Shown one piece after another: positions 4,080 to 63,866 of a stretch of 64,000 bases of DNA; the first letter of the stretch is position 1; the number at the start of each line of letters is the position of its first letter. The notes under the pieces are model-generated. The model worked only from the letters and a program-made list of their open reading frames with translations. It was not told the origin of the DNA and did no database searches. A program made the position numbers and the translations under genes. The DNA is from Salvelinus alpinus (taxonomy: Eukaryota; Chordata; Actinopteri; Salmoniformes; Salmonidae): assembly GCF_045679555.1 (NCBI RefSeq), contig NC_092099.1, forward strand, positions 14,274,076 to 14,338,075, in the 5' to 3' direction.

Positions 4080-19825
<15,746 letters not shown>

Positions 19826-52637: not shown

Positions 52638-53888
52638 CTATTCAGGTTTTAGAGCGAGAAATTCTCTCCGGACATTTGCAAGGAAGGCAGAGAAGTTGTT
52701 GGTCTCCTGGAGTCTCTGCTCCAAGTGACTCATGCAATCCAGTGGTGGGTCGCTAGACACAACTGTGGACAAAAATATGGTTATATCACATTTCCAGCCA
52801 TTCATGATAACACTCCTAGTTTCCAAAACCATTTGTTACTGTACTGTTCTATACTATTTACTGTACTCACTCTGGTATAATCCTCCTTCGTTGATCCTCA
52901 GCATGAAGGTGTATACACATTCCGAGTCTTTTTGGTTGATGTCTCGGAAGATAAACTGCAATTTCTCTCCTTGAATAAAAGAATAACAATTCCTTTTAAT
53001 TCTGTGGTTTAACACTTGGTCAACACTAAAATGTTCAAACAATAAAATATTACTGCCATTGCCAACAGACTTATTCCCGATTTACCATGAATTTTTCTAA
53101 TTTCCAATCCCAGCCGACCCTGAAACACCTGCTTGGCTTTGTTGAGATTTTTCAGTCTGTCCTTGTTGGCTTTGTTTTGGGACACAATCACTTAAAAGAA
53201 AGGAAAATCAAGGGGACATGTTTGTTTTGGATACTAATCTATTTTAGAACAATGAATAGTTGTGTGTGAAGGACAAAATCTACTATTCCATTTACTGAAA
53301 AGAGCCTACATTCTTTTTTCTTGGCTTGTTCCACTCGGATCATCTCTATCTTTTCAATGATCTTGCTTTTCTGTACGTTCTTCCCTTCCACTTCAGACAG
53401 TCTCTTCGCAATGCCATTTCTCTTCTCCACCAATGAGGCATTTTTATTTTCCAAGTCTGGGGGTAGGGGGGACATTGTCTTCAATAATAAAGTATGAGTA
53501 GGCTAGTGCCAAGGTTACGGTCAAACTGATTGTTAGTGACACTTCACAGGATGTCATGCCCGGCACAATCTTACCTGTTTTGTATGAGTCTATCGTTTCA
53601 AATATTATTTCATCATCCTTCCATTTCTTTGAACACGTATCTGCAGAAAGAGAAGGGAGATTATTATAGCTGTGAATAGACACATTTTAAGCATAATTGA
53701 CTCGGTAAACATGGCGACAGCGTCCAACTCATACCGAGAACAGATCTGACGGTCTTTCGGTGGGTTTGAACCCAATCCATGCCTGTCTCCGTCATCTCGG
53801 CCGTTCCCTGAAAAAGCATTTTGTTGCGAATGTCTTCCATTGTGCTACTAAACCAATTCCCAATGTTTGCATCTGTAATGCAGTTCAT
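52638..53888 (-). CDS. SPC25: SPC25, NDC80 kinetochore complex component, complete, 6 exons, 231 aa
   Basis: Subunit of the NDC80 complex that, with SPC24, anchors the complex to the inner kinetochore (MIS12/CENP-T) during mitosis (family knowledge). Exons in transcript order: 53735-53888 (start codon at 53886-53888), 53575-53640, 53310-53456, 53086-53190, 52871-52969, 52638-52762. The frame is continuous over 696 bases including the TAG stop. The middle is charged coiled coil (ENKNASLVEKRNGIAKRL and onward). The C-terminal RWD-type globular domain shows GRLGLEIRKIHGEKLQFIF and TNNFSAFLANVRREF, which are diagnostic of SPC25. Human SPC25 is 224 aa as I recall. The N-terminal 51 residues are divergent; an acceptor CACCTAG six bases upstream of the ATG shows that a 5'-UTR exon lies further right. 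All introns are under 270 bases. Confidence 0.93.
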
Positions 53889-54189: not shown

Positions 54190-56215
54190 TCTTCAAGAAT
54201 CAAATCAAATTCTATTTTTCACATGCGCCGAATACATTACACCTTACAGTGAAATGCTAACTTACAAGCCCTTAACCAACAATGCAGTTTTAAGTAAAAA
54301 AATTGATAACAAATAATTAAAGAGAAGCAGTAAAATAATAATAGCGAGGCTATATACAGAGTCAATGCACCGGTTACTCAATGTAATATGTACATGTAGG
54401 TAGAATTAAAGTGACTATGCATAGATAATAAACAGAGAGTAGCAACAGCGTAAAAGAGGTGGGGGGGGAAGCAATGCAAATAGTCTGGGTAGCCATTTGA
54501 TTAGCTGTTCAGGAGTCTTATGGCTTGGGGCTAGAAGCTGTTAAGTCTTTTGGACCTAGACTTGGAGCTCCGATACCGCTTGCCGGTCTATGACTAGGGT
54601 GGCTGGGGTCTTTGACAATTTTTAGAGCCTTCCTCTGACAACGCCTGTTATAGAGGTCCTGGATGACAGGAAGCTTGACCCCAGTGATGTACTGGGTTGT
54701 AAGCACTACCCTCTGCAGTGCCTTTCGTTCGGAGGCTGAGCAGTTGCCATACCAGGCAGTGATGCAACCAGTCAGGATGCTCTCGATGGTGTAGCAGCAG
54801 ATTTTTTTGAGGATCTGAGGACCCATGCCCAATCTTTTCAGTCTCCTGAGGGGAAATAGCCTTTGTCGTGCCCTCTTCACAACTGTCTTGGTGTGCTTGG
54901 ACCATGTTAGTTTGTTGGTGATGTGGACACCAAGGAACTTGAAGCCGTCAACCTGCTCCACTACAGCCCGTCGATGAAAATGGGGCCGTGCTCGGTCCTC
55001 CATCTCCTTTGTCTTGATCACGTTGAGGGAGAGGTTGTTGTCCCGGCACCACACGGCCAGGTCTCTGACCTTTTCCCTAAAGGCTGTCTCATCGGTGTCG
55101 GTGATCCCATCTACCACTGTTGTGTCATTGGCAAACTTGATGGCGTTGGAGTCGTGCTGGCCATGCAGTCATGAGTGAACAGGGAGTACAGGAGGGGGCT
55201 GAGCACGCACCCGAGGGACCCCGGTGTTGAGGATCAGCGTGGCGGATGTGTTGTTCCCTACCCATACCACCTGGGGGCGGCCCGTCAGAAAGTCCAGGAT
55301 TCAGTTGCAGAGGGAGGTGTTCAGTCCCAGGGTCCTTAGCTTAGTGATGAGCTTTGAGGCCACTATGGTGTTGAACGCTGAGCTGTAGTCAATGAATAGC
55401 ATTCTCACATAGGTGGTCCTTTTGTCCAGGTGGAAAAGGGCAGTGTGGAGTGCAATAGAGATTGCATCATCTGTGGATCTGTTGGGGCAGTATGCAAATT
55501 AGAGTGGGTCTAGGGTTTCTGGGATAATGGTGTTGATGTGAGCCATGACCGGCCTTTCAAAGCACTTCATGGCTACAGACGTGAGTGCTACGGGTTGCTA
55601 GTCATTTAGGCAGGTTCCTTTAGTGTTCTTGGGCACAGGGACTATGGTGGTCTGCTTGAAACATGTTGGTATTACAGACTCAGACTGGGACAGGTTTAAA
55701 ATGCCAGTGAAGACACTTGCCAGTTGGTTAGCGCATGCTCGGAGAACACGTCCTGGTAATCCGCTTGGCCCTGTGGCTTTGTGAATATTGACCTGTTTAA
55801 AGGTCTTACTCACATCGGCTACGGAGAGCGTGATCACACAGTTGTCCGGAATAGCTTATGCTCTCCTGCATGTTTCAGTGTTACTTGCCTCAAAGCGAGC
55901 ATAGAAGTAATTTAGCTTGTCTGGTAATCTCGTGTCACTGGGCAGCTTGCGGCTATGCTTCCCTTTGTAGTCTGTAATAGTTTGCATCCTCTGCCACATC
56001 CGACGAGTGTCGGAGACGGTGTAGTACGATTCAATCTTAGTCCTGTATTGATGCTTTGCCTGTTTGATGGTTCATCAAAGGGCATAGCAGGATTCCTTAT
56101 ACGCTTCCGGGTTAGAGTCCCGCTCCTTGAAAGCGGCAGCTCTACCCTTTAGCTCAGTGCGGATGTTGCCTGTAATCCATGGCTTCTGGTTGGGGTATGC
56201 ACGTACAATCACTGT
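54190..56215 (-). mobile_element. 5'-truncated L2/CR1-like LINE with decayed reverse transcriptase
   Basis: Minus-strand frames in order: 56217 to 56075 (PWITGNIRTELKGRAAAFKE), 55837-55598 (HKATGPSGLPGRVLRACANQ; TTIVPVPKNT) and 55117-54518 (FKFLGVHITNKLTWS; AWYGNCSASERKALQRVV). These are the linker, early RT and post-RT blocks of fish L2-like LINEs. The polymerase motif at 55121-55135 reads FANDT where FADDT is expected. Frames are interrupted by stops between blocks. The 3' tail reaches a CAAATCAAATTC run near 54190. It lies between SPC25 and the G6PC2 remnant. Confidence 0.8.
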
Positions 56216-57690
56216 GGGGACGATTAATGGCCGATTAATAAGGGCCGATTTCAAGATATAACAATCGTTAATCGGCCTTTTTGGATGCTGATTATGGCCG
56301 ATTACATTGCAATCCACGAGGAGACTGCGTGGCAGGCTGACCGCCTGTTACGCGAGTGCAGCATCAAAATTACCTTGTGGCTGCAAGGAGCCAAGGTAAG
56401 TTGCTAGCTAGCATTAAACTTATCTTATAAAAAAACAATCAATCTTCACATAATCACTAGTTAACTACACATGATTGATGATATTACTAGGTTAACTAGC
56501 TTGTTCTGCGTTGCATATAATCAATGTGGTGCCTGTTAATTTATCATCGAATCACAGCCTACTTCAACTTCGCCAAATGGGTGATGATTTAACAAAAGCG
56601 CATTCGCGAAAAAAGCAGTATCGTTGCAATAATGTACCTAACCATAAACATCAATGCCTTTCTTAAAATCAATACACAAGTATATATTTTTTTAAACCTG
56701 CATTTGTAGTTAAAATAAATGTATGTTAGCAAGCAATATTAACTAGGGAAATTGTGTCACTTCTATTGCGTTCAGTGCAAGCAGAGTGAGGGTATATGCA
56801 GCAGTTTGGGCCGCCTGGCTCGTTCCGAACTGTTGAAAGGCCATTTCTTCCTAACAAAGACCGTAATTAATTTGCCCGAATTTTACATAATTATGACATA
56901 ACATTTAAGGTTGTGCAATGTAACAGCAATATTTAGACTTAGTGTTGACACCCGTTCGATAAATACACACGTATTTCACTGAAAAAATTAACATTTTGTT
57001 TTTGAAATGATCGTTTCCGGATCTGACCAAATTAAATGGCCAAAGGCTCGTATTTCTGTGCGTTTATTATATTATAATTAAGTATATAATTTGATATTTG
57101 ATAGAGCAGTCTGACTGAGCGGTGGTAGGCAGCAGCAGGCTGGTAAGCATTCATTCAAACAGCTCCTAGCAATGCTTGTTTATGACTTCAAGCCTATCAA
57201 CTCCCAAGATTAGACTGGCAATACTAAAGTGCCTATAAGAACATCCAATAGTCAAAGGTATATGAAATACAAATGGTATAGAGAGAAATAGTCCTATTAT
57301 TCCTATAATAACTGCAACCTAAAACTTCTTAACTGGGAATATTGAAGACTTATGTTAAAAGGAACCACCAGCTTTCATATGTTCTCATGTTCTGAGCAAG
57401 GAACTTAAACGTTAGCTTTTTTACATGGCACATATTGCACTTTTACTTTCTTCTTCAACACTGTGTTTTTGCGTTATTTAAAACCAAATTGAACATGTTT
57501 CATTATTTATTTGCGACTAAATTGATTTTATTTATGTATTATATTAAGTTAAAACAAAAGTGTTCATTCAAAATTGTTATAATTGTCATTATTACAAACA
57601 CATATACGCTGGTGCAATCAAACACACACCAACGCTCACAAATCACCATTTACTTTGTTGGACTATTTATTATATTTAACCTGCAGCTCA
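56216..57690. repeat. AT-rich dispersed-repeat-like segment with GGCCGATTA words
   Basis: GGCCGATT or its inverse occurs at least four times between 56225 and 56310 (for example ATGGCCGATTAATAAGGGCC). The following 1.3 kb is AT-rich with no exon recognised. I believe this is a known salmonid dispersed element but cannot place its ends. Confidence 0.45.
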
Positions 57691-61151: not shown

Positions 61152-61629
61152 ATGGACCTCATCCACAGCAGTGGGGTGCTGGTGATCCAGCACCTCCAAA
61201 GCAACTACAGAGACTACCATGAGTTCCTTGACTTCATGACCTCTGTGGATGACCCTCGTCACATATTTTCTCTCGATTTCCCTCTGTGGTTCCAACTTGG
61301 CCAAATTGTCTGCACCAAGATGATATTTGGGGCAGTTATTGGAGACTGTTTCCACCTAATCTTTTACACTTGTACTGCCATAATTTGTAAAGGGAGGGAG
61401 AGAGTGTTATGTAAGTTATGTAACAGTATCCTTATAGATGCTTATAAAATCATCATGTTTTCTGTTTAGGGGACACGTCTTGTTATATAAATGTTAATAT
61501 GACTGTCTCTTGTTTTTAGTATTCTGTTTGGCTAGTGGCCATACTGGTGGGTGCAGGAAACTGTCTTTTACCGGAATAATTCACTCCCTCAGCTTTAGCA
61601 GTTCCACATTACCTGTGAAACAAGACCAG
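61152..61629 (+). pseudogene. G6PC2: G6PC2 (islet glucose-6-phosphatase related) pseudogene, exons 1-2 only
   Basis: Exon 1 (61152 to about 61369) encodes MDLIHSSGVLVIQHLQSNYR and onward, closely matching the human G6PC2 N-terminus through TKMI and AVIGD to residue 71. At the ancestral donor (codon 73) the bases read AC|TT instead of TG|GT, so the splice site is lost. Exon 2 (61520-61629) is 110 bases, the family's usual exon 2 length as I recall, with AG before it and GTCAGT after it. It reads ILFG-stop-WPYWWVQET, then SLPQL-stop-QF and TCETRPG. The TAG stops are at 61533-61535 and 61596-61598. The phosphatase signature K-X6-R-P is damaged: K72 is Y and R79 is W. Exons 3-5 were not found in the following 2.3 kb, which is mostly repeats. 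The position beside SPC25 is the ancestral G6PC2 locus. A working gene would need readthrough of two stops and cannot be supported. Confidence 0.9.
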
Positions 61630-61839
61630 GTCAGTGTTATTTCCAGTCTGTCAATCATTATGATCATAAATTCTAGAGATTGAAGGAAAGTCAATCATTA
61701 CATTTTCAGTTCTTAGATAATTCTATGTAATGGCTTACAAAATGGCACAACTGTCTGATATATTGTTGTGTGGACTTTAATTTATCTTTGTGAATGTCCT
61801 GCTTGTATGATAGATAAACAGTGTTTATTTGTATTTATA

Positions 61840-62478
61840 CAATGGGTGGGTCTAAACCTGAATGCTGATTGGTTAAAAGCGTATTACAGCCGGTGTCTAT
61901 TCCACAAGTTACCACCGGCAAAATCTATGAATGCCTATTTACTCTGTTCCATCTGAATCCGCAATCCACTGTCTCATCAGCCCAGCCAAGCAATTTATAA
62001 ACTTGATCTCCACTATAAAAAGCATCTAGACATTCTCACATTACTTTTAGACTAACATTTAGTTTTCAACAGCGGAGATTTGTATAAACCTTGCTGTCTG
62101 TCTCCGACATTTGCAAAACTGTTTTCAATATTCAAATTCGATCTCCAGCTGTCCCATAGTAATGAACGTGAAGGGGTCGGAATGAGACAGACAGGCAGGC
62201 AGCGTTTCTCAGCCAGTCGAAATCATGAATTGTTTCAATCATTTTTAAAAGGTACAACGAAACACAGTGCAGCTAGTTTGCAGTCTTTTACAGCTTAAAC
62301 AAATGCAAATGCAGATACTGTTGTTATTCTGGCTGCACTGTTTGACGTGACTGTAAGTTAGCCGTAGTTGGCTAGCTAGCAAGCAAGGGTTAAGAACGTT
62401 GCCAGCCAGTATGGAACATTTAGAACAAACGACTGGGTCGTTGCCATTTCCAAAATGTTGGTAACCCGTTGTATAAAA
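61840..62478. repeat. Probable dispersed repeat after the G6PC2 remnant
   Basis: ATTGGTTAAAAGCGTATTAC and flanking text to about 62480 resembles a salmonid dispersed repeat. I looked here for G6PC2 exons 3-5 and found none. Confidence 0.35.
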
Positions 62479-62586
62479 GTGATAATGCCCTCAAAGCCGG
62501 TGTTTGGAGGATATTGACCTAGTCTAGGCCCTAACAACACCCGTGCCAATATATCCTCCAAACACCAGCTTCTCTGGCATTATTAC
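62479..62586. repeat. Palindromic MITE, family shared with 22012-22130
   Basis: Arms GATAATGCCCTCAAAGCCGG and the inverse of AGCTTCTCTGGCATTATTA enclose the GGTGTTTGGAGGATAT pair. The right half is full; the left arm lost a few bases (GGATATTG for GGATATATTG). Confidence 0.75.
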
Positions 62587-62765
62587 TTAAAGGCAGTCCT
62601 CCCGGTCATGCCATGAGCTCTTCGATTGTCTGGTATATAATAATCACATCAGCACTCAACTTTACCAGAGGCCTTTCTGGCAGCTCAACTCTGGGATGCC
62701 AGAGGTAGGCACATCTATGAGCATGTTATTTTTATATTGCTTTGTGAAAGACTGTACACTGTGTG

Positions 62766-62990
62766 TATAAAACTCATGCTCTTTCTATGACATAGTCTAA
62801 CTAGGTGAATCCAGGTGAAAGCCACAATCCCTTATTGAGGTCACTTGTTCAATCCACTTCAATCAGTGTAAATGAAGAGGAGGAGACAAGTTAAAGAAGG
62901 ATTTTTAAGCCTTTAGACAACTGAGACATGGATTGTGTATGTGTGCCATTAAGAGAGTGGAAGGGCATAATGTTTTTTACACTCATTGTA
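62766..62990 (+). mobile_element. Partial copy of the 103-634 Tc1-like family
   Basis: GTGAATCCAGGTGAAAGCCA through TTGTGTATGTGTGCCATT matches the left half of 103-634; both termini are eroded and it ends in TACACTCATTGTATA. Confidence 0.7.
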
Positions 62991-63004: not shown

Positions 63005-63866
63005 TCAATTAGGTATACTCAGCCTTGTCTAAGGGTAGTAAGTTGGTGGTCTGTTGATATCCCTCTAGTGGTTTGGGTGGGGTTATATCCTGCCTGGTTG
63101 GCCCTGTCTGGGGGTATCGTCGGACAGGGCCACAGTGTCCCCTGACCCACCCCTGTCTCAGTCTCCAGTATCTATGCTGCAATAGTCTATGTGCCGGGGG
63201 GCTAGGGTCAGTCTGTTATATCTGGTGTAATTATCCTCTTATCTGGTGTCCTGTGTGAATTTAAGTATGCTCCCTCTAATTCTCTCTCCCTCCCCTCCCG
63301 GAGGACCTGAGCCCTAGGATCATACCTCAGGACTACCTGGCTTGATGACTCCTGGCTGTCCATAGTCCACCTGGTCGTGCTGCTGCTCCAGTTTCAACTG
63401 TTCTGCCCGCGGCTAGGGAACCCTGACAAGTTCACCGGACTCTCTCTCTCTCTCTCTACCGCACCTTCTGTTTCGACCTCTGAATGCTCAGCTATGAAAA
63501 GCCAACTGACATTTACTCCCGAGGTACTGACCTGTTGCACCCTCTATCACCACTGTGATTATTATTTGACCCTGCTGGTCATCTATGAACATTTGATCAT
63601 CTTGAAAAACAATCTGGCCTTAAATGGCCATGTGCTCTTATAATCACCACCCGGCACAGCCAGAAGAGGCTCTGAAGCCACCCCTCAGAGCCTGGTTCCT
63701 CTCTAGGTTTCTTCCCAGGTTCCTGCCTTTCTAGGGAGTTTCTCCTAGCCACTGTGCTTCTACATCTGCATTATTTGCTGTTTGGGGGTTTAGGCTGGGT
63801 TTCTGTATAGCACTTTGTGACATCTGCTAATGTGAAAAGTGCTTTATAAATATATTGATTGACTAA
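63005..63866 (+). repeat. Long dispersed salmonid repeat
   Basis: Includes GACCTGAGCCCTAGGATCAT, CCAGTTTCAACTGTTCTGCC and CACCCGGCACAGCCAGAAGA, ending AGTGCTTTATAAATATATTG. I recognise this as a very common repeat in salmonid genomes and even in transcript 3' ends. The 88-codon frame 63377-63643 lies in it and is not a gene. The tail 63867-64000 shows nothing. Confidence 0.65.

Follow-up and report, generated by a model that had tools for sequence, protein, structure and literature searches.

The G6PC2 copy that lies beside SPC25 on contig C14 of Salvelinus alpinus is, with a probability that we put at roughly 0.96 from the sequence, a dead, unprocessed duplicate left by whole-genome duplication, whose partner on contig C20 remains open. 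The window analysed here is a stretch of 64,000 nucleotides (C14:14274076-14338075) within an assembly of 2.37 Gb and 928 contigs. At this locus introns and flanking gene order are kept, the coding sequence carries disabling lesions and an intact homeologue stands elsewhere in the genome, as in an unprocessed pseudogene derived by duplication; the kept introns distinguish the remnant from a retrocopy. Searching the genome with the DNA of window positions 61152-61629 returned four matches, namely the query itself and three minus-strand pieces of C20 that matched it at 90% (query bases 1-212), 78% (212-322) and 89% (345-478). Aligned to the homeologue, window 61152-61363 is identical at 90% (E 3.6e-74) and window 61496-61629, inside which exon 2 lies, at 89% (E 1.9e-40), bearing out an earlier note that had read the first two exons of a decayed G6PC2 in this stretch.

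Three exons can be placed on the plus strand of the window, and the introns between them align to those of C20. By codon alignment, exon 1 (61152-61361) keeps its first 70 codons at 90% identity to exon 1 of C20, its 3' end having been lost to a deletion. Exon 2 (61520-61629) is readable over 110 bases, as the note had said; in the alignment it retains its acceptor AG and donor GT, with a change of G to T at its first base. The same note had exons 3-5 missing from the next 2.3 kb, which is right for exons 4 and 5 and wrong for exon 3: protein search and alignment locate the latter at 62593-62704, with an open frame, the donor GTAGGC and PPGH in place of PSGH. Exon 3, which the note overlooked, lies behind a high-copy repeat (61835-62588; 3900 candidate places, 40 scored), which ends a few bases before the exon and gives intron 2 about 756 bases more than its counterpart on C20. 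For exons 4 and 5 no credible match was found over C14 62705-83925, either by blastn (best match 20 bases of exon 4, E 0.007) or by tblastn (best E 0.41). Homeology between C14 and C20 ends at 62770 and restarts at 63863, and the gap between the homeologous stretches is 1093 bases long on C14 and 3212 on C20; a second high-copy repeat (63014-63860; 10513 candidate places, 40 scored) lies where the two exons would be expected and occupies most of their former place on C14. Two loci on C8 in opposite orientation, 1072109-1074007 and 1090352-1092183, each contain a 64-base piece of this repeat in numerous tandem copies.

The phosphatase motif consists of K-X6-R-P, PSGH and S-R-X5-H. On C14 a 46-base deletion at 61361-61366 of the plus strand, recognised in alignment from an interval between shared words that spans 51 bases on C20 and 5 on C14, has removed the end of exon 1, taking with it the catalytic Lys of the first signature, the Trp that follows and the donor GT. 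Two details of the earlier note fall with this deletion: the exon 1 donor was read as changed to AC|TT and the signature Lys as changed to Tyr, but the bases in question are intron, brought up by the deletion, so that the donor was not substituted and the Lys codon was not altered in place; both are gone. Its other two observations on the coding sequence hold. Plus-strand TAG codons at 61533-61535 and 61596-61598, which codon alignment sets against Gln78 and Glu99 of the C20 protein, are the sole stops among the 36 codons of exon 2 in the homeologue's frame, and the Arg of the signature's RP pair is indeed replaced by Trp, R79W in the same alignment. Exon 3 adds S113P, by which PSGH becomes PPGH, and the third part of the motif is missing. 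The C14 remnant, to judge from its sequence, cannot encode a working phosphatase, because the Lys of the first signature is deleted, its Arg is changed, PSGH is broken and everything from exon 4 onward is missing. That exons 1-3 might nevertheless yield a truncated working product is scarcely credible: the frame of exon 1 does stay open through 61469, but the exon 1 donor is lost, exon 2 holds two stops, catalytic residues are altered in exons 1-3 and missing for exons 4-5, and dN/dS is no lower than in intact pairs. It must also be considered that the sequence rests on one assembly, in which errors of assembly or consensus could have disfigured a working second copy. The lesions, however, are of differing kinds (the 46-base deletion, the two stops and a 3' half replaced by repeat), the amino-acid changes at conserved sites are many and exons 4-5 of a second copy occur on no contig, and we give this explanation almost no weight.

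Comparison with the homeologous chromosome and a whole-genome search with an intact protein were both proposed in the earlier note. The comparison found a five-exon G6PC2 on the minus strand of C20 (C20:40777216-40775243), with SPC25 and ABCB11 sequence flanking both loci; its GT-AG introns and 1074 coding bases give a protein of 357 amino acids in which there are no internal stops and the catalytic motifs are present. This open frame supports the note's suggestion that the second ohnologue may still work. The protein has the Pfam domain PAP2 and matched five sequences in the PDB, all of them G6PC1 (best E 4.6e-130), and an NCBIfam search assigned it to no family. Searched against the whole genome it gave 32 matches, comprising the C20 gene itself, the three exons of the C14 remnant, six further G6PC loci (one each on C1 and C36, two on C7 and two on C3) and one distant locus on C7 near 23.95 Mb, which we assign to G6PC3 solely by its distance; no third G6PC2 was found, nor was exon 4 or 5 of G6PC2 seen outside C20 among these 32 matches. 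A genome search with PF01569, whose 32 matches were mostly other phosphatases, was set aside. Over aligned blocks, five of these G6PC loci share 53-56% identity with the C20 protein and the sixth, the second C3 locus, 47%; the six are 54-96% identical among themselves. In a tree of seven rows, from which the decayed C3 row was left out, a split supported at 98/97 separates C20 and the distant C7 gene from the remaining five rows. Against G6PC1 structures C20 scores 416 bits, compared with 483 bits over the same blocks for the C7 gene near 39.85 Mb, as expected if the C20 gene is not G6PC1. The C20 copy thus reads as G6PC2 by its motif, its adjacency to SPC25 and ABCB11 and its separation from the G6PC1-like genes.

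The wider G6PC inventory contains oddities of its own. A second member of the family appears decayed at C3:20380402-20383729, with the frame of exon 1 shifted and stops farther on; its counterpart on C7 gives open matches, and the block identity of the pair is 86%. The pair formed by C1:44584566-44587732 and C36:12212056-12214509 has a dS of 0.053, far under the 0.175 of the C7/C3 pair, which may reflect late rediploidisation or gene conversion; at one position where the other intact genes compared have Trp, the C1 copy carries Arg.

The neighbours of G6PC2 anchor the comparison of the two chromosomes. On the minus strand of the window, SPC25 is legible as four coding exons within 52641-53457 (52641-52757, 52872-52967, 53084-53182 and 53311-53457), a model that begins after the 5' exons and whose coordinates give the core only, with approximate splice ends. 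A genome-wide search with PF08234 (Spc25) gives a single match, at window 52659-52766, and the four exon peptides match Spc25 in the PDB at 7e-36. SPC25 sequence adjoins G6PC2 on C14 and on C20 alike, in keeping with the SPC25-G6PC2 locus named in the earlier note. The C20 copy of SPC25 is broken: 20 bases are deleted from its last exon, another exon shows deletions of 5 and 10 bases, a third is interrupted by foreign DNA of about 3.4 kb whose inverted ends, next to TA, look Tc1-like, and exon 53311-53457 found no match in the C20 stretch searched. The inserted DNA lies at about C20:40784715-40788080, and in parts it resembles window 4364-5998 and 12003-13616 at 85-90%. Open stretches on the minus strand of the window at 54521-56347, in the interval separating SPC25 from the G6PC2 remnant, look by eye like a non-LTR retroelement reverse transcriptase. 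Beyond the window end, three minus-strand exon peptides identify ABCB11, the bile salt export pump providing the best 4 of 470 matched PDB sequences; one of these peptides matches C20:40763214-40763414 at 84%, the next-best place reaching 67%. ABCB11 sequence thus persists on both C14 and C20, and SPC25 and G6PC2 were resolved reciprocally: SPC25 can be read on C14 but is broken on C20, and G6PC2 shows the opposite.

How long ago constraint on the C14 copy was lifted can be approached through its divergence from C20. Over 143 codons 15 changes are synonymous and 30 non-synonymous, stops being counted among the latter, giving a dS of 0.187, a dN of 0.094 and a dN/dS of 0.51 (bootstrap 0.26-1.06). 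Two other G6PC pairs, compared over blocks, have lower dN/dS values of 0.067 (C7/C3, 110 codons) and 0.36 (C1/C36, 310 codons), although that bootstrap interval includes the second. C14 and C20 differ at 28 amino acids, of which 17 were polarised as derived on C14, none as derived on C20 and 11 were left unpolarised; the polarisation goes by majority among paralogues, a method that favours conserved sites and in which some majorities are thin (for example K20R, 3 to 2). Colinear non-coding homology flanks the remnant on both sides, and eight alignable segments differ at 223 of 1514 bases, a Jukes-Cantor (JC) distance of 0.164 that is likely an underestimate, as aligned segments alone were used; it is near the dS of the C7/C3 pair (0.175) in this comparison within one genome. 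With non-coding divergence as the neutral yardstick, the share of the time since the split that passed without protein constraint comes to between 0.67 (w 0.36) and 1.11 (w 0.05), with intervals of 0.03-1.45 (w 0.357), 0.45-1.57 (w 0.2) and 0.64-1.62 (w 0.067); synonymous sites give 0.46-0.96, with intervals extending below 0. These values lean towards an old loss of G6PC2 on C14, and the estimate is too loose to date it.

The same non-coding alignments bear on whether the C14 stretch, its coding gene dead, serves instead as a promoter or enhancer of SPC25 or ABCB11 or as a non-coding transcript. Upstream non-coding sequence is still alignable, with an identity of about 86% (79 of 553 aligned bases differ), and exons 2 and 3 retain their donors, yet among the eight non-coding segments the 5' flank of exon 1 has diverged most (31/160, against 223/1514 overall), which does not indicate special constraint, and intron 2 and the 3' side are filled by repeats; we consider such a role improbable. 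Under the preferred reading of a dead duplicate, genome doubling, probably the salmonid duplication (Ss4R), would have placed the block SPC25-G6PC2-ABCB11 on two homeologous chromosomes. The C14 copy of G6PC2 would have lost its function by point mutation and deletion, gained repeats and lost exons 4-5, in an order of events that we infer, and SPC25 would have resolved the other way, staying readable on C14 and breaking on C20. With its intact frame and conserved residues, the C20 partner most likely supplies the G6PC2 function. The earlier note had cast the C14 copy as the loss of a beta-cell glucose-sensing gene; a loss of beta-cell function is unsupported and does not follow, because the open partner on C20 persists. 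A more adventurous proposal is that SPC25 and G6PC2 became unlinked through reciprocal loss, leaving a single G6PC2 locus, and that freed regulation or a halved dose then shifted the islet glucose set-point, contributing to the glucose intolerance of carnivorous salmonids; we hold this to be a speculation with little probability behind it.

In this assembly the G6PC2 count is one open locus and one dead; expression probes and knockouts therefore need to be directed at C20 only, and the C14 locus should carry no gene annotation. The loss of adjacent genes on opposite homeologues illustrates in compact form how a doubled genome is resolved reciprocally. In the open-licence literature no title was found that concerns the loss of a G6PC2 copy in a salmonid, which is weak evidence of absence. 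The nearest parallel by gene is the rat, in which G6pc2 (IGRP) is stated to be a pseudogene (PMC8941207, PMC5297017): the same gene is lost, but in the rat the loss is that of the species' G6PC2, whereas in the present genome the C20 duplicate is still open. The nearest by lineage is rainbow trout, for which Marandel 2017 (PMC5414149) treats g6pca and g6pcb and describes a g6pca remnant, the word g6pc2 being absent from its main text. That remnant is likewise a decayed G6PC-family duplicate in a salmonid, but of a G6PC1-type gene, whereas the C14 remnant is G6PC2; the C3 locus that looks decayed may correspond to the trout g6pca remnant. The present inventory also resembles that published for rainbow trout, with five G6PC genes counted (PMC5297017) and the g6pca remnant (PMC5414149), and this resemblance, together with the paired loci, is the ground on which the analysis itself reads the duplicates as salmonid. 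Genome-wide, Gillard 2021 (PMC8042706) reports Ss4R ohnologues in 65% (6689) of 10,154 salmonid gene trees and biased local loss in 9 of 47 blocks; since 65% of trees kept both copies, resolution to a single copy is common, a genome-wide statistic and not one for this locus. Like those many losses of one copy, the C14 case is a clean, ordinary example of a known post-duplication process.
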